Part shown: positions 26,551 through 35,167 of the stretch, one piece after another
Layout of the letters: every line of letters starts with the position of its first letter
How positions within the stretch are numbered: position 1 is the stretch's first letter
Source of the DNA: Spirochaetota bacterium
Lineage (GTDB): Bacteria; Spirochaetota; Spirochaetia; Treponematales; UBA12059
DNA: 64,000 nt
Direction of reading: 5' to 3'
NCBI GenBank assembly: GCA_018262985.1
Contig: JADFDI010000002.1
Coordinates: forward strand, 124,001-188,000
The notes under the pieces: generated by a model
What the model saw: only the letters and a program-made list of their open reading frames with translations
Told to the model about the DNA's origin: nothing
Database searches by the model: none
Program-made: the position numbers and the translations under genes

Positions 26551-28125
26551 ATGGGCACGAGGGCGAGGGAGGGAAGGGGGTTCAGGCTCGCGGTCGCGGC
26601 CATGGCGGCCATGGCGGCCGTGATAGCCGGCTGCGCGCTGGCTCCCCGCACGTCGGGCGCCGAGTCCCCATGGCCCGGCCGGGTCATGGTGCTGGTCGCC
26701 GATTCCGGCGATTCATCCGCCTCAGCGGTCCTGTCGCCCGCGCTCGAAGCGCTGCGGGCGGCGGGCATCGGCGACCCGATCTCGGCGCTCAGCCAGGACG
26801 TGGCCCTTGCCGATTTCGAACGCGTCGCGTCGGTTCCCTACCTCGAGGCCGTCGAACGCCTCGTGCCCGGCGATCCGCGACGGGATCCCTGGATCGAAGG
26901 GCTCGATCGGTATTTCACCGCCAGGTCCGGCGGCAAGTCCTGGCGGATCATCTATGCGTCCGCCTCGCCGAACGCGGCGCGGAAGGCCCTGGAAAAGGCG
27001 CTCGGGCCGGAGGACGAGCGGACCTGGATGCTCGCCGAGCGCGGATCCTCCCGCGCGCGTTTCCTGTGGATCCTTCCGGCCGCCTTCGCGCTCCTGGCGA
27101 CCTTCCATACGCGCCATCGCCGGATCGAGCGGCTCCTCGGCTCGCTGGCGTGGGCTCCGCTCTGGTGGATGGGAGGAGCTCCGGCCGCCGCCGTCTCCCT
27201 GCTGGCCACTTTCGCCGGCGCGCGGGCCAGCGCCCTGCTCCCCCGTCAGCGGACCGCGGCTCTCCGGAGCGGTTCAGCCGAGGCGGCCGAACGCCTGCTC
27301 CGCGCGCTACGCGCCGTCGGCGGCCCGGTTCTGGCCGCGAGCCTCCTCCTGGCCATCGTCGAACCCCGGCTCATACCCGCGGCCTTGCTCTGCGCCCTCG
27401 GCCAGACCGCCATCCTCGAGGCCGTATCCGGCCTCAGGGCCATGACCCGCACCCGCGAGGGCCGGAAGTCCTTCCTGCCCGTGCCGATCGTCCCGCCCTT
27501 CCGACGGAAGGCGCCCGATTCCTTCGCGCGGCTCTCTCCGCTGTTGGCCTTGCTCGCCCTGGCCGCCTTGCCTCTCTCCTTCCTCGGGAAATCCGGCGCG
27601 GGCGTCGCCGTCCCGTCGGGAATACTCGTACCCGTGCCCGCGGGTTCCTCCGCCGGGGCCCGGGAGGAGCAGCCGCTCAGATCCGCCCTCTCGGGCGATT
27701 CCTCCGACGCGCGGCTTCCGGACCTCGCCGACGCCGCCGCCCACGTCGCGTTCCAGCGCGGAGTGCTCCTGGAACGGCTCGGCGAGGCGGTATACGGCTC
27801 GGGCGAGCCGATCGTTCTCCAAGGTTTCAGGAGGGGAGCCGGAGGACTCCTGGAAGCCGCTTCCGCGGCGCTCGTCCCCGTTTCCGATCCTTCCGACTCG
27901 GGATACTCCGCGAGGTCGATAGAAGCGCTTCTCGCCGGGGCGGGCGGCAACGCCGTCGTCAGGCTCGAGTCCATGGACGGCCCCGGCGCTCCGCGCCGCC
28001 TTGCTTTCTTCGAAATTCTCGTCTATATACTCGCCTTCGCCCCCTTCGCCGCCGCTCGCGGCGCGAACCTGTTGGCGAGAGCCGTCGCCGAGGCGACGGC
28101 GGGAAAGGTCCGGGAAGCAGCATGA
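26551..28125 (+). CDS. Unknown multi-pass membrane protein leading the rnf operon
   Basis: A 524-residue protein without a family I recognise. Residues 1-28 look like a signal/lipobox (AAVIAGC); about 40-165 would be an extracytoplasmic domain; about 165-345 contain three or four hydrophobic stretches (FLWILPAAFALLATF; LAWAPLWWMGGAPAAAVSLLATF; LIPAALLCALGQTAILEAVSGL; LLALLALAALPLSFL); a second soluble segment of about 140 residues follows; and the C-terminus has one more helix (FFEILVYILAFAPFAAARG). Its stop overlaps the rnfC start (ATGA), so it is translationally tied to the Rnf complex. ATG 26551 lacks a clear ribosome site; a later start is possible but would lose the signal. Confidence 0.7.
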   Translation: MGTRAREGRGFRLAVAAMAAMAAVIAGCALAPRTSGAESPWPGRVMVLVADSGDSSASAVLSPALEALRAAGIGDPISALSQDVALADFERVASVPYLEAVERLVPGDPRRDPWIEGLDRYFTARSGGKSWRIIYASASPNAARKALEKALGPEDERTWMLAERGSSRARFLWILPAAFALLATFHTRHRRIERLLGSLAWAPLWWMGGAPAAAVSLLATFAGARASALLPRQRTAALRSGSAEAAERLLRALRAVGGPVLAASLLLAIVEPRLIPAALLCALGQTAILEAVSGLRAMTRTREGRKSFLPVPIVPPFRRKAPDSFARLSPLLALLALAALPLSFLGKSGAGVAVPSGILVPVPAGSSAGAREEQPLRSALSGDSSDARLPDLADAAAHVAFQRGVLLERLGEAVYGSGEPIVLQGFRRGAGGLLEAASAALVPVSDPSDSGYSARSIEALLAGAGGNAVVRLESMDGPGAPRRLAFFEILVYILAFAPFAAARGANLLARAVAEATAGKVREAA

Positions 28126-29432
28126 AACGACTCAGGAATTTCCGGACCGGCGGTCTAGCTATCGCCGGAGCCCCGGTCCGCTTGGCGGAAGAGGCGAGAA
28201 ACGCCTATCTCCCGGCCATCGCGACGATCCCCCTTCGCCAGCACCTCGGCCCGGCCGCGCGCTGCGTGGTCAAGTCGGGCGATCGAGTCGAGGAGGGACA
28301 GGCGATAGGCCGCGCCGAGGGCCGAGATTCGGCCGACGTCCACTCTCCCGTCCCAGGCGTGGTCCGCAGGGTTTCCCGCGTACGCCTCGCCGGGGGCCTC
28401 GAATGCGAAGCGGTCGAGATCGCCCTTTCCGGCGCCTTCACGCGGCTGGGCAAGCCGAAGCGGCTCAGTCCCTGGCGATCGATGCCGCGCCATGAAATCG
28501 TCCGGACGATCCGCGAGCGCGGGCTCGTGCGGGCCTCCGACGGAAGACCGCTCGCCGACGCGCTGTCCGTCTTCGAGGACGAAGGACCCTGCGAGCTGGT
28601 CGTCATCACCGCGGTGACGGGCGAACCCAGGAATCCCATCGAGGCCCTGACGCTCTCGCGCCGTCGGGAAGCCGTCATCGAAGGCTTCGAGATGCTCTGC
28701 CGCGTGCTTAGTCCCCTGTCGGCCCTGGCCGTTTTCGACGCGGAAGACCTCGGGCTCGCCGCTTCCTGGGATGGAGCCAAGGGCGCCGAGGGCCCCCCGA
28801 TCCAGGCGTACTCGGTTCCCCGACGTTATCCGCAGCACCTTCCGGGCCAGCTCGCCGCCGCTTTGGCCGAAGCCAAGGTGACCGCGGCCGCCACCCGGAC
28901 CTTCTTCATACAGCCTTCGCTGCTCGCCGAGGTTTACGAGGCGGTGGCGGAAGGGAAACCCTCGCTCGAACGCTGCGTGCTCGTCGCGGGCGGAGCGGTC
29001 AAGACCCCGTCCGTCCTCAAGGTCCGGATCGGCACGTCCATCGGCGCTCTCTTCGAGGAGTGCGGCGGCTTCAGGATCCCGCCGCAGCGCGTCGTCCTGA
29101 ACGGGGCGCTCGACGGTCTTGCCTGCGCCGATCTCGACGTGCCCGTCACCAAGACGACGGACATGGTTCTCGCGCTGACCGCGGAGGAAACCAGGACGAG
29201 GCCCGAGCGCGCCTGCATACGCTGCGGCGCGTGCGTCGACGCCTGCCCGGAAGGACTGGACCCGATGCGCCTCCACAAGCTCTACGGAAGCCGCCGTCTC
29301 TCGGAGATGCCCGCCGCGGGCCTCTCCGACTGCACGCTCTGCGGAGCCTGCGCCTACGCCTGCCCCTCCCGGATCCCGCTCGCGCAGAGCTTCTCGATCG
29401 CGAGGGCGCGGTCGCCGGAGGCTTCGCGATGA
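28122..29432 (+). CDS. rnfC: Rnf electron-transport complex subunit RnfC
   Basis: A 436-residue peripheral subunit that accepts or delivers electrons on the NADH side of the Rnf complex. The N-terminal barrel-sandwich segment contains VKSGDRVEEGQAIG and VHSPVPGVV; the central part is the SLBB/Complex1-51K region (VLVAGGAVKTPSVLKVRIGT); the C-terminus has two [4Fe-4S] motifs, CIRCGACVDACP and CTLCGACAYACP. The NADH/FMN-binding consensus in the 51K region looks weak by eye. Its start overlaps the preceding gene and its stop overlaps rnfD (ATGA), part of a six-gene chain of overlaps. Confidence 0.93.
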   Translation: MKRLRNFRTGGLAIAGAPVRLAEEARNAYLPAIATIPLRQHLGPAARCVVKSGDRVEEGQAIGRAEGRDSADVHSPVPGVVRRVSRVRLAGGLECEAVEIALSGAFTRLGKPKRLSPWRSMPRHEIVRTIRERGLVRASDGRPLADALSVFEDEGPCELVVITAVTGEPRNPIEALTLSRRREAVIEGFEMLCRVLSPLSALAVFDAEDLGLAASWDGAKGAEGPPIQAYSVPRRYPQHLPGQLAAALAEAKVTAAATRTFFIQPSLLAEVYEAVAEGKPSLERCVLVAGGAVKTPSVLKVRIGTSIGALFEECGGFRIPPQRVVLNGALDGLACADLDVPVTKTTDMVLALTAEETRTRPERACIRCGACVDACPEGLDPMRLHKLYGSRRLSEMPAAGLSDCTLCGACAYACPSRIPLAQSFSIARARSPEASR

Positions 29433-30520
29433 GGCGCCATGGCTACCCCATCGTGTCCGCGGCTCCCTTCGCCCACGCGGCGCGATCCACCGCCTCGCTC
29501 TGCTTCGCCGCGGCCGCGGCCCTCGCGCCGGCGTTCGCCTGGAGCGCCTGGATTTTCGGCCCCCGGGTGATGCTGGTGGCGATCGTATCCATCGGCTCGG
29601 CGCTGGCCTCGGAAGGCCTCGCGAACCTCCTGGTGCGCCGCTTCACCCTCGGGGACGGCAGCGCCCTGCTGTCGGGGCTCATCGTGGCCGCCGCGATGCC
29701 GCCCGGAGTGGCCTTGCACGTTCCGTTCCTGTCGTCCGCCTTCGCCATGCTCGCGGTGAAATGGACCTTCGGGGGACTCGGAGGGAACTGGATGAACCCG
29801 GCGCTCGCCGGCATCGCCTTCGCCCAGGTGAACTGGCGGGGCGAGCTGCTCGGAGGCTGGACCATGCCGCGGATCCTGTCCGGCGTCGACGGCCTCAGCG
29901 CCTCGACCCCGCTCGGATACCTCGCCGACGCCACCGGCGGTTCGCGCGTCGCCATGCCCCTGGAAGTCCTCAAGAAGGCGGGTTATCCGGTTTCCGCCTT
30001 CGACGGCAAGGTCACGTCCTTCCTCAACGACCATGTCTTCGGCCCGCTCGGCGCCGAGCTTCCCGGCGGCTATGTCGACCTGGCCCTGGGTTTCCGGCCC
30101 GGGGCAATCGGTGAAGTCGCGGGGATATTGCTCCTGGCTGCGTCGGTCTTCCTCATCGCGAGGAAGGTGCTCCGCTGGGAAGCCCCGTTCGCGGCCTTCC
30201 TCGTGTTCGGCCTCGCGTCCAGGCTTTCCGGGGGGACGGACGGTGAGCTCCTGTCAGGCGACGCCCTTTTCGCCGTATTCTCGGGCGGCTTCATCATGAC
30301 TGCCTTTTTCGCGCTCGGCGATCCGGTCACCACGCCGGTCTCGCGCCCGGCCCTCGCCCTGTTCGGCGCGGGGACCGGCGCCCTCGCCTTCGTCTTCCGA
30401 CGCTGGGGCGCCCAGCCTGACGGCGTCGCCTTCGCGGTTCTGATGATGAACGCCCTCGTCCCCTTGCTGGACAAGGCTTTCCCGCCGGCGGGCCGGGCAC
30501 GCGAAGGAAGGACCCGATGA
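29429..30520 (+). CDS. rnfD: Rnf complex membrane subunit RnfD
   Basis: A 363-residue, eight-to-ten-helix membrane subunit related to NqrB. GGNWMNPALAGIAFAQ and ALGDPVTTPVSRPALALFG are conserved segments. The segment GLSASTPLGY contains Thr160, placed where RnfD/NqrB carry covalently bound FMN (usual form S-G-A-T-P/A-L), so flavinylation is likely here although the Gly of the motif is replaced. Coupled by ATGA overlaps to rnfC and rnfG. Confidence 0.9.
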   Translation: MRRHGYPIVSAAPFAHAARSTASLCFAAAAALAPAFAWSAWIFGPRVMLVAIVSIGSALASEGLANLLVRRFTLGDGSALLSGLIVAAAMPPGVALHVPFLSSAFAMLAVKWTFGGLGGNWMNPALAGIAFAQVNWRGELLGGWTMPRILSGVDGLSASTPLGYLADATGGSRVAMPLEVLKKAGYPVSAFDGKVTSFLNDHVFGPLGAELPGGYVDLALGFRPGAIGEVAGILLLAASVFLIARKVLRWEAPFAAFLVFGLASRLSGGTDGELLSGDALFAVFSGGFIMTAFFALGDPVTTPVSRPALALFGAGTGALAFVFRRWGAQPDGVAFAVLMMNALVPLLDKAFPPAGRAREGRTR

Positions 30521-31068
30521 ACGAATCGGTGAGGGCGCGCCTGCGCATATCCCTCGCTTTCGCTGGCGCGGTAGCGGCTTTCCTGCTACCCGCCGGCGCG
30601 CTGGGCTGGCTCTCCGCCTCGGCCGAGTCGCTCCACCACCGCGCCGGGATTTCGGCGATGCTTTCGGACTCGGGAAGCTCGCTCGGATCGCCCGGAGCCG
30701 AAATCCGGGTCGCCCGCGACGAAGCCATCCTCGCGCTATACCCCGTCGTCGGTTCGCGCGGGCGTTCCGCCGGAGCGCTGGCGGCGGGCGTCGTCCTCGC
30801 CCGGCTAGGGGAGGGCGCGTTCCCGATCGAACTCGCCATCGGCCCCGGCGGAAGCGCCCTGATCGCCAGGGTTCCGTACGGGACGCCCGCCTACGCGGCG
30901 AACGCCCTCGAGGCGGCGATCGCCGCGCGGACCGACGGAAAACCCGGAACGGGAATCGCGGAATCGCTCCTCGGTCCGGGCGCCGCCTCGCGCGCCGTCG
31001 AAGAGGCCATCGAGGTCTTCGTTCGCGCCTGCGCGGACGCGGGCCTCGTCGAACTGGAGGACTCGTGA
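30517..31068 (+). CDS. rnfG: RnfG-like subunit with degenerate flavinylation motif
   Basis: A 183-residue protein with one N-terminal membrane helix (residues 12-33) and an extracytoplasmic domain, in the usual rnfG position between rnfD and rnfE. Normal RnfG carries S-G-A-T-x-[ST] whose Thr receives FMN through a phosphodiester bond. Here the only segment that aligns, before the conserved SRAVEEAIEVF, is LGPGAA at residues 152-157: the Thr position is Gly155. The domain is also short and lacks the ETPGLG-type block. Either the subunit works without bound flavin or it has diverged to a structural role. Called RnfG on position, size, topology and the C-terminal SRAV-x-EAI match. Confidence 0.75.
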   Translation: MNESVRARLRISLAFAGAVAAFLLPAGALGWLSASAESLHHRAGISAMLSDSGSSLGSPGAEIRVARDEAILALYPVVGSRGRSAGALAAGVVLARLGEGAFPIELAIGPGGSALIARVPYGTPAYAANALEAAIAARTDGKPGTGIAESLLGPGAASRAVEEAIEVFVRACADAGLVELEDS

Positions 31069-31673
31069 AGCCCGCACCCCGCCCATCGCGAAAGGATCCG
31101 GTTTTCCTCACGGCCATCGGACTGGCCCCCGTGGCGATCGGTTCGGTATGCCTGGTCGATTCCGTCGTCCTCGGCGGCGCCGTGGCCTTCTCGGCGCTCG
31201 CCGCCGCCGCCGCCGCTCCGTTCGCCCGTCGCCTCGTCGAACGACCGCTCCAGCGGCTCGCAACGATACTCGTCGTGGCCGCCGCCGCTTCGTTATGGTC
31301 CTTGGGAGTCAGGGCCGTCGCGCCGGAACTCTGGGGCCGGCTCCATTTCTGGCTTTCTCTCGCCGGGGCCAACTGCATGGCCCTTTCGGCCGCCGGCGTA
31401 TCGAGCGAGGACGAGGATTTGGCGCGCCTGCCGGGACGCCTCGTTACCTCCCTCCTGTATTTCCTCTCGGCCTTGGCGATAGGCGCCGCGCGCGAAATCC
31501 TCTCGACCGCCGCCATAGCGCCGTTCTTCCTCGCCTCCGGGATCCGGGCAGGGGAATCCGCCGCCCGGCCGTTCCTGCGGATATTCGCCCTGCCGTCGGG
31601 AGGGTTCATCGTGCTCGGCGTCGGCATCGCGCTCGCCCGGTACCTGAAGCGTAACGTTGGGAGGAAGGCATGA
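31065..31673 (+). CDS. rnfE: Rnf complex membrane subunit RnfE
   Basis: A 202-residue, six-helix membrane subunit of the RnfA/RnfE (NqrD/NqrE) family. LAPVAIGSVCLVDSVVLGG has the first conserved Cys, and LSLAGANCMALSAAG the second; in related complexes four such Cys from RnfA and RnfE bind an intramembrane [2Fe-2S] cluster. GTG start, overlapping the rnfG stop as GTGA. More divergent than typical RnfE (Ala-rich, shorter loops), but the cysteine pattern and position support the call. Confidence 0.82.
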   Translation: MKPAPRPSRKDPVFLTAIGLAPVAIGSVCLVDSVVLGGAVAFSALAAAAAAPFARRLVERPLQRLATILVVAAAASLWSLGVRAVAPELWGRLHFWLSLAGANCMALSAAGVSSEDEDLARLPGRLVTSLLYFLSALAIGAAREILSTAAIAPFFLASGIRAGESAARPFLRIFALPSGGFIVLGVGIALARYLKRNVGRKA

Positions 31674-32263
31674 GCGTGGTCGGCATCGCCTTCTTGTCGG
31701 TGTTCGGCGTCAACGCGCTGCTCCGATACGGTTCGGGGACCTGTTCCGAATGCCGGGGAACGCACGCTCCCCGCGGCCTGGCCGGAAGCCTGGCCTTCCT
31801 GGCCTCGGCGCTCGCCGCCGGCACCCTCCACGGGCTCCTCATGCGCTTCGCGCTGCGGCCGCTCGGGCTCGAGACGCTCGATCCCTTCGTTTTCGCGCTG
31901 GTATCCTCGGCCAGCGGCTTCGCCCTGGCTTTGGGAGCTTCCAGGCTGAAGGGCGACTTCGCCGACCGACTCGCCAAGTCGCTCGACAGGCTCACCCCGA
32001 GCTGCGCCATCTACGGCATCGCCCTCGCGGCCTCCGGTCTGGCCCGGAGCGGTTCCGCCATCCTCGTCGCCTCGTTTTTCGGCGCCCTTGGCTACCTCGC
32101 CGCTTCCGCCATTCTCGACGCCATCCGCGAGAGGCTCGAGCTCGAGAACCTGCCTGACGCCTTCAAGGGGGCTCCCGCCTACTTCATCTCCGCGGGCCTG
32201 CTCGCGCTGGCCTTCCACGGCCTCGAGTCGATGCTCGGTCCGATGTTCGGGAGCCTCAGGTGA
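31670..32263 (+). CDS. rnfA: Rnf complex membrane subunit RnfA
   Basis: A 197-residue, six-helix membrane subunit paired with RnfE. FGVNALLRYGSGTCSECRG replaces the usual G-x-C-P-F-x-G segment but keeps the Cys; LTPSCAIYGIAL keeps the second Cys. The C-terminal half (LDAIRERLELENLPDAFKGAP, YFISAGLLALAFHGLESML) closely follows RnfA. Coupled to rnfE (ATGA) and rnfB (GTGA). An extra Cys in the first loop (SEC) is unusual and could affect cluster ligation. Confidence 0.85.
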   Translation: MSVVGIAFLSVFGVNALLRYGSGTCSECRGTHAPRGLAGSLAFLASALAAGTLHGLLMRFALRPLGLETLDPFVFALVSSASGFALALGASRLKGDFADRLAKSLDRLTPSCAIYGIALAASGLARSGSAILVASFFGALGYLAASAILDAIRERLELENLPDAFKGAPAYFISAGLLALAFHGLESMLGPMFGSLR

Positions 32264-33117
32264 TCTGGCTCCGCGTTTTCGCCGCCCTGATCGCCCTGTC
32301 CGCGGCCGCGTTCTCGGCGGCCGCGGCGGCCTCCTTCGCGACCCTCCGCGGATCCCGCGGCGAGGCCCGCCGAAGGCTGCGCGCCGCCTTGCCGGGCTGG
32401 GACTGCGGCGCCTGCGGATCTCCCGACTGCGCGGGCTTCGCGGATCGCCTGAAAAGCGGCGACGCCCGCCCGGCGCAGTGCGAGGCCCTCGACCGCGAAT
32501 CCGCGGAGCGCCTGGACGCCCTGCTCGGCCGGGCAAGCACGGACGCATCCGTCGCCGTCATCGCCTGCGCGGGCGTCCGCGGGCTCACCCGTCCCCGGTT
32601 CAGCTATGACGGCCTGAAGGACTGCCGCGCGGCCGCGTCCTTTTACGGAGGCGACCGCGTCTGCGCCTCCGCCTGCCTCGGCTACGGCGACTGCGTCGCG
32701 TCCTGCCCGGTCGGCGCCATTTCCGTCCGGGAGGGCCTCGCCCGGATCGACCCGGGCCGCTGCGACGGCTGCGGGGATTGCGTCGCCTCGTGCCCCAACG
32801 GCGTGATCCGCATGGTCCGCGACCGGGACTCCTGGTACGTGGCGTGCAACTCGACGGAACGCGCCGATGCCAAGGCGCCGGGCTGCGACGCCGCCTGCGA
32901 CGCCTGCCGGATCTGCGAGCGCCTCTCGGGGAACGGCGAGTTCAGGGTGAGCGACAACCTGGCGCGGGCCGTGGACGTCTCCACCGGCACGCACGACGAG
33001 ATCGCCGCGGCCTGTCCGAGGGCCTGCATCCGGCAGCCCGGCAAGGCCGGACCGGAAGAGTCGACCCTCCATGAAGAGGAATTACGCGCTTCGCCCTACC
33101 GGAAGCCCCGTCGCTAG
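32260..33117 (+). CDS. rnfB: Rnf complex ferredoxin-type subunit RnfB
   Basis: A 285-residue subunit that takes electrons from ferredoxin. It has an N-terminal membrane anchor (residues 3-27), an RnfB-type cluster motif (CGACGSPDC then PAQC at about 49-75), and two ferredoxin motifs: CASACLGYGDCVASCP and CDGCGDCVASCP. Further cysteines (CNSTE, CDAACDACRIC, CPRAC) follow in the C-terminal part, more than in the simplest RnfB. GTG start overlapping rnfA. Last gene of the rnf chain; I see no strong terminator after it. Confidence 0.92.
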   Translation: MIWLRVFAALIALSAAAFSAAAAASFATLRGSRGEARRRLRAALPGWDCGACGSPDCAGFADRLKSGDARPAQCEALDRESAERLDALLGRASTDASVAVIACAGVRGLTRPRFSYDGLKDCRAAASFYGGDRVCASACLGYGDCVASCPVGAISVREGLARIDPGRCDGCGDCVASCPNGVIRMVRDRDSWYVACNSTERADAKAPGCDAACDACRICERLSGNGEFRVSDNLARAVDVSTGTHDEIAAACPRACIRQPGKAGPEESTLHEEELRASPYRKPRR

Positions 33118-33157: not shown

Positions 33158-35167
33158 ATGAAGAAAATCCAGCTGCTCGTGGGTTCGTACAACCACCTTC
33201 CTCCCGGTACCTCGGAAACCGCGCTCGAATCGACGTACCAGAAGGGCTACCGGCCCTTCCTGTCGGTGCTGTACCGGTTCCCCGAGCTGCAGGCGACGCT
33301 CCACTACGGCGGCGGCCTGCTCGCCTGGCTGGAGCGTCGACATCCCGAGTTCATCATGCTGCTGGCCGAGATGGCCGCCCGCAAGCAGGTGGAGCTGCTC
33401 GGCGGCGCCTATTTCGAACCCATCCTGCCCTGGGTGCCCGGTCCCGACCGCATCGGCCAGGTCGAGGCCCTCACCGTCCTTATCCGCAAGAGCTTCGGCC
33501 GTAGACCCCGCGGCTGCTGGCTTAGCGAGTACGCCTGGGAACCTTCGCTGGCGAGTTCGCTCAAGACGAGCGGCATGGACTACACCTTCCTCCTGGACCG
33601 CTCGTTCCGCTCCGCCGGCCTTTCCGGCGAGATCTACCAGGGACCCGTCACCACCGAGGACCAGGGGCGCGACATCGTCGTCTTCCCCGTCCACGACTGC
33701 GCCGCTTCCTTCGCCTCGGCGGGCGGCTACATCGAAGCCCTCGAGGACCTGCGGCCGAAGCATCCCGACGCCTCGTTCCTGGGCCTCATGTTGCCCGGCG
33801 AGCGGGCCGAGGGACTCTGGTTGGAGTCGGGCCTCGAATCGCCGGACGTGTACTTCGAACGCACTTTCTCCGCGATGGCGCGCATGGCCCCGGAGCTGGA
33901 GACGGTCCTGCCCGGACGCTACCTCAGGTCGCAGGGACAGCTCCAGAGGGCCTATTTCCCCAGTTCCGCCAGCGACGGATTCCTCGACTCCGGCGCGTCG
34001 GCGGCGCTGCTCTCCGAGCTGGAGGCCATGCGCAAGCGGCTCGGAGGCTCGGCGAACGGCTTCCCGCGGCCTGGCAGCATCCGGCAGGCCCTGATCCGGA
34101 CCGAGGAAGCGTCCCTGCTCTACGCGCGCATGCAATACGTCCATCTGCTGGTATCCCAGCTGAGGGGCGACAAGGCGCGCAAGAAGGCCGCGCAGGAGGA
34201 GCTCTGGAGTTCCCAATGCGCCGAGGCCTACTGGGCCGCGCCTTCCGGCGGCATCGCCGACCCGGCCATACGAGGGGCGGCCTACGCGTCCCTCCTCGAG
34301 GCCGAGCAGATCACGCGGCAGAAGGGAAGCTTCCGGCCGGGGATCATCCAGGCGGACATCGACTGCGACCGCGCCAAGGAGACCCTCTTCCAGGGCCAGT
34401 ACTACAACGCCTACGTGCACGCGCGAGGCGGCGTGCTCTTCGAGCTCGACCACTTCAAGACGGGGCGGAACCTGGCGTCGGGCTACGGAGGGACCTCGAC
34501 GGAGAAGGCCGCGCTCAGGCGCCGCTGCTTCGTCGACGCGCTTCCCGCGGAGCCCGTCCTGCCGGAAGACCTCGCCTCGGGTCGCGTCAGGGATCCCTCG
34601 GGCCTTTCCTCCGCGTGGTACTCGATCCTCGAGCCCAAGCGACCCAACCACGAGGCCGGCTTCCTGGTCGAATCCGGCGTGCCGGGACAGGGCGGGCCGC
34701 ACGCCGTCTCGCTCGAGAAGACCTTCGTCTTCAAGAAGAATCAGCTCACGGTCAGGTACCTCCTCCGGAACCTATCGGGATCGACGCTCGAGCGAGGGTT
34801 CCTTTCGGCCTTCCACTTCGTACCTTCGTACGGAAAGGACGGGCACGTCCTCACGGCGTTGGCGAAGGATGCCGACGGTACCGAGCGCGAACACGCGATA
34901 GGCGCCGACGAGCAGCGGGCCTTGTCCGACGCGCTCAAGGCGACGCTGGCGGGGCCGGACCTGTCCGAGCCGCTCACGCTGGCGTCCGACAAACCGTTCC
35001 GGCTCCTCGCCGCGCCTTACGAGGATCGCAGTCCCGGCGAGACCCGCCGGCAGGGCGTGGCGCTCGCCCTCGAGTGGCAGCTCAAGCTTCCTCCGGGTTC
35101 CGAGTGGAAGGCGTCGGTCAGCCTTTCCTTCCGGGACGAGAAACCCCAGGAAGGCGCCGCGCGTTGA
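33158..35167 (+). CDS. Glycoside hydrolase family 57 protein (alpha-amylase / 4-alpha-glucanotransferase type)
   Basis: A 669-residue protein with a GH57 catalytic domain in the first ~300 residues: YNHLPPGTSE near the start (the HQPxG-like block), GGAYFEPILPWVPGPDRIGQ, and GCWLSEYAWEPSLA, whose Glu (about residue 127) is the expected nucleophile. The remaining ~370 residues match the alpha-amylase/4-alpha-glucanotransferase accessory domains in layout (YYNAYVHARGGVLFELDHF and later beta-sandwich sequence). It would cut or transfer alpha-1,4-glucan segments, likely in glycogen handling. A perfect -10 (TATAAT, 33120-33125) precedes it without a clear -35. Usual catalytic Asp not pinned down by eye. 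Confidence 0.85.
   Translation: MKKIQLLVGSYNHLPPGTSETALESTYQKGYRPFLSVLYRFPELQATLHYGGGLLAWLERRHPEFIMLLAEMAARKQVELLGGAYFEPILPWVPGPDRIGQVEALTVLIRKSFGRRPRGCWLSEYAWEPSLASSLKTSGMDYTFLLDRSFRSAGLSGEIYQGPVTTEDQGRDIVVFPVHDCAASFASAGGYIEALEDLRPKHPDASFLGLMLPGERAEGLWLESGLESPDVYFERTFSAMARMAPELETVLPGRYLRSQGQLQRAYFPSSASDGFLDSGASAALLSELEAMRKRLGGSANGFPRPGSIRQALIRTEEASLLYARMQYVHLLVSQLRGDKARKKAAQEELWSSQCAEAYWAAPSGGIADPAIRGAAYASLLEAEQITRQKGSFRPGIIQADIDCDRAKETLFQGQYYNAYVHARGGVLFELDHFKTGRNLASGYGGTSTEKAALRRRCFVDALPAEPVLPEDLASGRVRDPSGLSSAWYSILEPKRPNHEAGFLVESGVPGQGGPHAVSLEKTFVFKKNQLTVRYLLRNLSGSTLERGFLSAFHFVPSYGKDGHVLTALAKDADGTEREHAIGADEQRALSDALKATLAGPDLSEPLTLASDKPFRLLAAPYEDRSPGETRRQGVALALEWQLKLPPGSEWKASVSLSFRDEKPQEGAAR

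Follow-up and report, generated by a model that had tools for sequence, protein, structure and literature searches.

The window analyzed here is a 64,000-nucleotide stretch of genomic DNA from a member of the Spirochaetota, and it harbors an rnf operon headed by an additional gene. The order of the genes is DUF212, P, rnfC, rnfD, an RnfG-like gene, rnfE, rnfA, rnfB, a GH57-like gene and a gene for a Mur ligase, in which P denotes a membrane protein encoded by an open reading frame (ORF) that is present as listed for this DNA (Table 1). From P through rnfB, each adjacent pair of genes overlaps by four bases, as read from the coordinates. The products of rnfC, rnfE and rnfG all lack some cofactor site, and the degenerate state of RnfG, noted in the original prediction made from the letters of this DNA, is borne out by the lack of any family match and of an FMN motif. 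The genome also carries a second, ordinary rnfC, whose canonical operon lies on a different contig (C18; L097).

Table 1. Genes and protein parts of the P-linked rnf operon, in positions of the window
Feature	Position	Strand	Basis and remarks
DUF212 (divergent PAP2) protein, 162 aa	26056..26544	+	Pfam PF02681, E 7e-40
P, 524-residue membrane protein	26551..28125	+	ORF listing, translation, homologue family, model
P helix 1, residues 4-30, N-terminal anchor or signal	26560..26640	+	lipobox-like IAGC at 25-28; model
P alpha/beta domain 1, residues 44-162	26680..27036	+	model, block pLDDT 74-96
P alpha/beta domain 2, residues 358-475	27622..27975	+	model, block pLDDT 62-93
ATGA overlap, P stop/rnfC start	28122..28125	+	-4 recurs across homologue loci
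rnfC of P-linked operon	28122..29432	+	TIGR01945, E 9.1e-74; eight 4Fe-4S cysteines kept, GGAGFP...ECEP lost
rnfD	29429..30520	+	PF03116, E 3.3e-71; FMN-threonine-like DGLSASTPL kept
rnfG, degenerate	30517..31068	+	no Pfam/NCBIfam match, FMN-threonine motif absent
rnfE	31065..31673	+	PF02508, E 1e-14; one of two [2Fe-2S] cysteines replaced by Ala
rnfA	31670..32263	+	PF02508, E 3.1e-8; both [2Fe-2S] cysteines kept
rnfB, Fe-S protein	32260..33117	+	PF04060, E 4.3e-9; NCBIfam
GH57 glycoside hydrolase-like gene	33158..35167	+	PF03065, E 2.4e-24

The P family and its predicted structure

P is a real gene, as had been proposed, since it has matches across many genomes and its dN/dS lies between 0.27 and 0.49 in seven genome pairs. 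With the single sequence as query, matches are found in 35 of the 96 genomes of a sample of relatives, and a 30-row profile, called A1, finds P in 287 of the 390 genomes of the order, the window's own genome being counted in both. The four-base overlap with rnfC is also present as originally described, in that the P stop codon (TGA, 28123-28125) runs into the rnfC ATG at 28122, and this ATGA probably reflects translational coupling of the two genes. An independent listing of homologue loci gives an offset of exactly -4 in 16 of 30, and among 57 P-rnfC pairs 47 overlap, 39 of them with the start at exactly -4, although in these latter counts the start codon nearest -4 was picked, a choice that favors -4.

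The signal/lipobox originally noted for P stands in part. The IAGC motif is real in the genus of the window, but a lipobox-like motif is found in just seven of 57 members, the window included, so the lipobox does not define the family. The P copies of Borrelia, which fall outside this count, are also lipoprotein-like. In the 30-row alignment, the conserved residues are DPR (108-110) and F122 in the first alpha/beta domain and H398 and Q402 in the second, which is modeled in the order strand-helix-strand-strand-helix-strand. Both domains are probably periplasmic.

P has no cysteine motif, no FMN-threonine motif and no other recognizable cofactor motif in its sequence, and it has no Pfam or NCBIfam match at E <= 1. 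When 30 homologues were scanned singly against Pfam, the matches were scattered over single members (best E 0.1) and none was consistent; FMN_bind was matched by neither the window protein nor the 30 homologues. The checks first proposed for P, namely a remote-homology search and structure prediction, gave no significant family or PDB match, the best E of the family profile against the PDB being 0.25. Comparison of a 61-row P alignment with canonical RnfC, RnfD, RnfE, RnfA and RnfG profiles by hhalign, RnfB being left out, gave P-values of 0.18 to 0.8. By sequence, P thus does not appear to be a known Rnf subunit among those compared, in agreement with the first reading of this DNA. The family was previously unnamed, and has no Pfam or NCBIfam model; the portions of the open-licence PMC full text available to us yielded no description of P or of the loss of Rnf sites.

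A 61-row profile (A2) finds P in 137 of the 392 genomes of a sample of the phylum, which is a lower bound, since in seven of ten Borrelia-type genomes A2 overlooked a P that is found when the loci are read. The 137 comprise 106 genomes, the window's own included, from the same order or closer, another 30 from the class, and a single doubtful one from outside it; this lone out-of-class match (G487, E 8e-5, inside a 1143-aa frame) is judged spurious. Coverage beyond the phylum consists of one scan of named genomes with the single sequence. A Chloroflexi match (L108) was rejected as a homologue, as it matches neither the enlarged P profile nor the RnfC profiles. As far as sampled, P therefore appears to be a protein of the Spirochaetia. 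Among the 20 genomes listed of the 103 negative with A1, 12 have a single, canonical rnfC and four more (G037, G048, G051 and G075) carry P according to A2. Among the 20 listed of the 255 negative with A2, the first four, which belong to the same order, are G032, G025, G030 and G033.

A few P sequences are broken or short. In one genome the P match (G172:C31:26644-28022) is interrupted by stops, with two TGA and one TAG in one piece, and may represent a decaying gene or an assembly error. Short P ORFs precede rnfC in G592 (L240, 1510-2200, 230 residues) and G636 (L258, 702-1344, 214 residues), and the rnfC beside them is intact in G592 and eroded, in the sense described below, in the other.

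A first structure model of P, from 30 sequences, reached a pLDDT of 72.5, and a second (m789408f0b87e), from 61 sequences, reached 82.9 with a pTM of 0.80. The helices and two soluble parts originally read from the sequence are present in this second model. It runs from a helix (4-30) through an alpha/beta domain (44-162) and helices at 174-186, 191-207, 210-237, 242-270, 272-302 and 324-346 to a second alpha/beta domain (358-475) and a final helix (483-523). The parts follow an order like that of the resistance-nodulation-division (RND) proteins, with helix 1, a domain, helices 2-6, helix 7, a domain and helix 8, but without helices 9-12, so that P has about eight helices where the RND superfamily has twelve. 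With model 2, Foldseek returned nothing at E <= 0.001; its best match is MmpL3 (E 3.4e-3, probability 0.99, TM-score to query 0.27), and 44 of the 50 listed rows are RND-superfamily proteins by title. VIA-align scores against RND proteins are at most Z 6.4 for model 2 and 8.7 for the poorer model 1, near the range of unrelated models. An RND identity was not borne out by sequence: hhalign against 24 MMPL/RND proteins of relatives gave a P-value of 0.26. Because none of these scores is significant, the RND-like order of parts is noted here with no claim of kinship. RND pumps place their proton-relay Asp in helix 4, and the helix 4 of P (210-237) holds no Asp or Glu. Two other candidates were set aside: the Wzc chains that form the top VIA-align rows for model 2 (Z up to 9.1 over 122 residues) are taken as a match of helices, not kinship, and a likeness to the extracellular domain of FtsX, raised by the order of elements in domain 1, was dropped after PF18075 gave no match in 25 relatives.

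Two Rnf lineages and their redox sites

The rnfC gene (TIGR01945) is found in 382 of the 390 genomes of the order, usually twice. Two types of operon can be distinguished, one canonical and the other divergent, the latter here called eroded after the redox sites described below. Inspected singly, 28 genomes included 20 with a P match at E < 0.001, and each of these matches adjoins a divergent rnfC and none a canonical one. The 30 homologue loci first fetched all have P followed by an rnfC-like ORF, in one case (L029, cut short) by way of a longer copy (L099). The full locus set holds 61 eroded-type and 19 canonical loci, reduced to 59 eroded by leaving out L140 and L143, whose contigs end before rnfC. 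P lies upstream of rnfC in 57 of the 59 eroded loci and in none of the 19 canonical ones, counts that are not of independent events, since the loci are related by descent. The survey of co-occurrence with rnf that had been suggested as a check thus supports the association in these loci, but P was also found away from rnf twice (L180 and L190).

In an RnfC tree of 109 rows, a branch with an SH-aLRT of 93 separates all 36 P-less canonical rows from the other 73; P adjoins 71 of these, 63 of them eroded and eight intact. The eight intact P-linked rows adjoin the P-less rows, and the 65 eroded rows lie outside. Four changes are needed for the P labels on this tree against a mean of 39.4 when shuffled. 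The tree is a quick maximum-likelihood one, unrooted, in which 36 of 106 forks, many of them deep, are unsupported and L178, L181 and L189 form long branches; it leaves out the near-copies L131, L133 and L134 and the fusion genes of Borrelia, and includes the locus of G592 as intact by profile score, with which the motif reading agreed. In these sequences, P is associated with a single one of the two Rnf lineages of the class Spirochaetia, which accords with the original suggestion of an added, Rnf-associated protein.

The GxGGAxFP loop of RnfC is found in none of the 59 eroded loci and in all 19 canonical ones, and ECEP in one and 19, respectively; at these FMN/NADH signature columns, the window RnfC reads RA-SDGRP / TGEP. 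The eight 4Fe-4S cysteines of RnfC are all kept in the window and in 59/59 eroded loci. The four cysteines of RnfA and RnfE, present in 18/18 canonical loci, are complete in seven of 56 eroded loci, with three in two loci, two in two, one in 11 and none in 34; L096, L163 and L165 (eroded) and L114 (canonical) gave no full count. The window has three of the four, the cysteine replaced by Ala being in RnfE. A motif like that for the FMN-bearing threonine of RnfG is seen in 18/18 canonical loci against six of 56 eroded ones, and is absent from the window. The RnfD threonine is present in 18/18 canonical loci, the aligned column in 58 eroded loci holding Thr in 21 and Ser in 18; strings of the SGATPL kind at the FMN site are confined, among eroded loci, to families f1, f2 and f4, and the window RnfD keeps an FMN-threonine-like motif. 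In the eroded loci, no rnfB was found after rnfA in 33, one was found in 19, and seven were undecidable. The residues listed here bind FMN, NADH and [2Fe-2S] in the Rnf/Nqr/NuoF families. The window is thus an intermediate, in which the NADH signature, the RnfG motif and one RnfA/E cysteine have gone and the RnfD motif and RnfB are kept. The RnfG of the eroded group compares with canonical RnfG at an hhalign E of 1.8e-4 (probability 48%) in the N-terminal half, suggesting that the two are related, weakly, over that half. In several Treponema-type genomes (L111, L116, L120 and L122), the canonical RnfG is of double length, with around 390 residues and two regions like the FMN motif.

The eroded operons do not appear to be in decay. 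The dN/dS was below 0.65 for every gene measured, and 0.14-0.37 for RnfC (NG86, stop-to-stop frames, seven genome pairs), which indicates that in the tested pairs these are working genes under purifying selection.

At the class level, there are also seven loci (L175, L176, L183, L184, L185, L187 and L188) that have P ahead of an rnfC whose signature is complete. All of them have RnfB, an RnfG with the motif (S/T/A)GA(T/S)xT and both RnfE cysteines, and the six to which an RnfA was assigned have both of its cysteines too. P is therefore independent of erosion, as it also adjoins an intact Rnf with a normal RnfG. In the stretches read, no DUF212 gene was found upstream of P in six of the seven. 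In 12 of 42 genomes of the class, P lies beside an rnfC of E <= 1e-145 that in every case retains the glycine loop and ECEP; 11 of these genomes show no other rnfC match better than 1e-12, the exception being G628 with a divergent one at 1e-58. In 12 others, P is beside an rnfC of E >= 1e-99 and there is a separate rnfC of E <= 1e-133; the glycine loop is absent from the 11 that were read, G565 lying outside the motif reading. An eroded rnfC stands alone in G598 and in the ten Borrelia-type genomes, and five of the 42 have no P match. The gain of a second Rnf may, on this pattern, have released the P-linked one. The two genomes with P but no adjoining rnf (G504 at L180, G662 at L190) have canonical rnfC elsewhere; P follows DUF212 in both, and in G504 the order is DUF212-P-GH57. 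Conversely, eroded Rnf without P is found in two genomes, G032 (T. pallidum) and G025. Since these four genomes exist, together with the short P ORFs of G592 and G636, not every Rnf of the lineage depends on P.

Most P-linked rnf operons are bracketed by DUF212, which is lipid-phosphatase-like, and GH57 genes. In eroded operons with rnfC, DUF212 lies upstream in 59/59 loci, as against 0/19 canonical ones, and GH57 lies downstream in 51/59, seven of the remaining eight being on stretches that end early. GH57 is missing from the Borrelia loci, L166, L177 and L179.

The corresponding operons in Treponema pallidum and Borrelia

The D-lactate dehydrogenase of G032, the T. pallidum genome, is identical over its full length, except for the tag end, to PDB 7jp2, which we take to be TP0037. 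The only rnfC match in this genome (L087) is of the eroded type, and DUF212 is followed by 135 bases and then rnfC, with no P between; the P profiles find nothing anywhere in the genome. RnfC has kept its eight 4Fe-4S cysteines and lost the FMN/NADH signature, and the RnfD threonine, all four RnfA/E cysteines, the RnfG motif and an in-operon rnfB are all missing. The operon as such keeps DUF212, rnf and GH57. T. pallidum encodes two FMN_bind proteins away from rnf. At L170, away from rnf, lies a small lipoprotein-like FMN_bind ORF of 175 aa with the motif VTGATVSS, which could be a free-standing, RnfG-like flavin carrier. In the published work, the RNF of T. pallidum is called atypical and noncanonical, and flavodoxin is modeled as reducing NAD+ through it (PMC7512555). 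This model of energy metabolism rests on an Rnf that, judged by its sequence, has neither the FMN/NADH signature nor any of the transmembrane cofactor sites examined.

The Borrelia-type genomes (f7/g93) include G478, which is Borrelia anserina, its second contig matching a B. anserina plasmid at 100%, and G547, whose second contig partly resembles Borrelia plasmids. All ten have DUF212, P, an ORF of 769-781 residues and an RnfA-like gene (L171-L173 and L244-L250). The long ORF, found for example at L172:7899-10241, starts as an RnfC without the CxxCxxCxxxC motif in all ten, and ends as an RnfD by Pfam in the two genomes scanned, making it an RnfC-RnfD fusion; the 435-position rnfC model is matched by it no further than 356-360. 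RnfA follows the fusion with no gene in between. From the gene order, we take these genes to be bb0070-bb0073, and from the order and its label as a putative lipoprotein, bb0071 is presumably the P gene. Mutants of the putative lipoprotein bb0071 were reportedly present in the input library and were not recovered from larval ticks (PMC6516651, Table 2). Borrelia keeps a conserved RnfC-RnfD fusion together with P and, if bb0071 is P, the unrecovered mutants are mutants of P. As the Rnf of T. pallidum and that of Borrelia have lost nearly all of their electron sites, they probably no longer do the usual job of the complex.

Possible roles of P and comparison with known systems

P is linked to rnf by position and overlap, is restricted to one lineage, has no known cofactor motif and stands beside both intact and eroded Rnf. 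We give about an even chance to the reading that P serves one ancient Rnf lineage of the Spirochaetia as a dedicated membrane partner without a redox role, most likely as an accessory subunit. Its helices would lie beside the RnfD/E/A core, with P binding to RnfD, RnfE, RnfA or RnfC, and its alpha/beta domains would face the periplasm, so oriented that P could stabilize the core and couple it to something in the envelope. Intact P-linked Rnf would still transfer electrons. Where an ordinary P-less Rnf coexists, as here, the P-linked complex may have been relieved of ferredoxin:NAD+ work and retained for a task that depends on the membrane core, the 4Fe-4S clusters of RnfC and P. Such a task would use neither an NADH site nor, in many lineages, a transmembrane electron path; candidates are the movement of ions or solutes, or a role in the envelope alongside DUF212 and GH57. 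The redox sites of this Rnf have been lost stepwise, yet purifying selection still acts on the genes in the tested pairs. Somewhat short of even is the chance, taken as a whole, that P-linked Rnf is a redox-stripped machine repurposed for ions, solutes or the envelope and usually with P as a core part, that its D/E/A core does without flavins or a transmembrane Fe-S cluster in the Treponema-type and f5-type families, and that the C-D fusion of Borrelia works with RnfA but without the RnfC 4Fe-4S motifs. On that view, T. pallidum would have no flavodoxin:NAD+ pump in its noncanonical RNF.

Against a tie between P and Rnf stands the fact that DUF212 accompanies P in eroded operons as faithfully as rnf does. 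The main rival, which we regard as unlikely though well ahead of those that follow, places P in an envelope module of DUF212, P and GH57 into which rnf was merely inserted, with P serving lipid or glycan processing and making no contact with Rnf. The presence of DUF212 in all eroded loci and of GH57 in most, the DUF212-P-GH57 order of G504 that has no rnf, the Mur ligase gene downstream in the window, and the retention in T. pallidum of DUF212, rnf and GH57 but not P all fit such a module. It accounts poorly for the frequent overlap of P and rnfC by exactly four bases (16/30; 39/57), for the intact P-linked loci, six of seven of which have rnf but no DUF212 found upstream, and for the loci that lack GH57; nor would chance insertion be expected to leave the P-less Rnf on one side of a branch.

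The original prediction had P compensating for the degenerate RnfG as an added subunit or assembly factor, which could mean, for instance, carrying a flavin or serving a periplasmic electron step, and this now looks very improbable. The RnfG motif is indeed missing from 50/56 eroded loci, P is present in 57/59, and P is modeled with two soluble domains. However, P adjoins seven intact operons in which the RnfG motif is normal, and has itself no Cys motif, FMN-threonine motif or FMN_bind match. It also persists in Borrelia, where no gene stands between the fusion and RnfA, and the Borrelia and Treponema-type loci have lost most or all of the electron path; T. pallidum, whose RnfG is likewise degenerate, has no P. 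Scarcely more probable is that P is a truncated, energy-coupled transporter of the RND/SecDF kind with the P-linked Rnf as its ion-motive partner. The order of parts in the model, minus helices 9-12, and the preponderance of RND titles headed by MmpL3 among the listed Foldseek rows speak for this; the Foldseek, VIA-align and hhalign scores given above, and a helix 4 devoid of Asp and Glu, where RND pumps have their relay Asp, speak against it. A dedicated partner of Rnf remains the reading that we prefer for P.

Of greater weight than P is the lineage itself. By definition, Rnf is an ion pump driven by electrons, and here a lineage sheds its electron sites and yet keeps its proteins under selection, in a group that touches two major pathogens. 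Whether the Rnf core can function without electrons becomes a directly testable question.

Several known systems can be set beside the P-linked operon. Like the known Rnf complex (RnfABCDGE), a ferredoxin:NAD+ oxidoreductase, the window operon has RnfC, RnfD, RnfE, RnfA and RnfB along with a degenerate RnfG; unlike it, the eroded operons usually carry the additional P and are without the RnfC glycine loop in 59/59 loci. The RND superfamily, which includes MmpL3, SecDF, AcrB and Patched, shares with the P model an ordering of helices and extracytoplasmic alpha/beta domains, but has twelve helices to the eight of P, with scores that are not significant and no relation demonstrated by sequence. 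Finally, the noncanonical RNF of T. pallidum, as presented in PMC7512555, corresponds to a P-less form of the window-type operon, and is one without a visible path for the NAD+-reducing pump proposed there.
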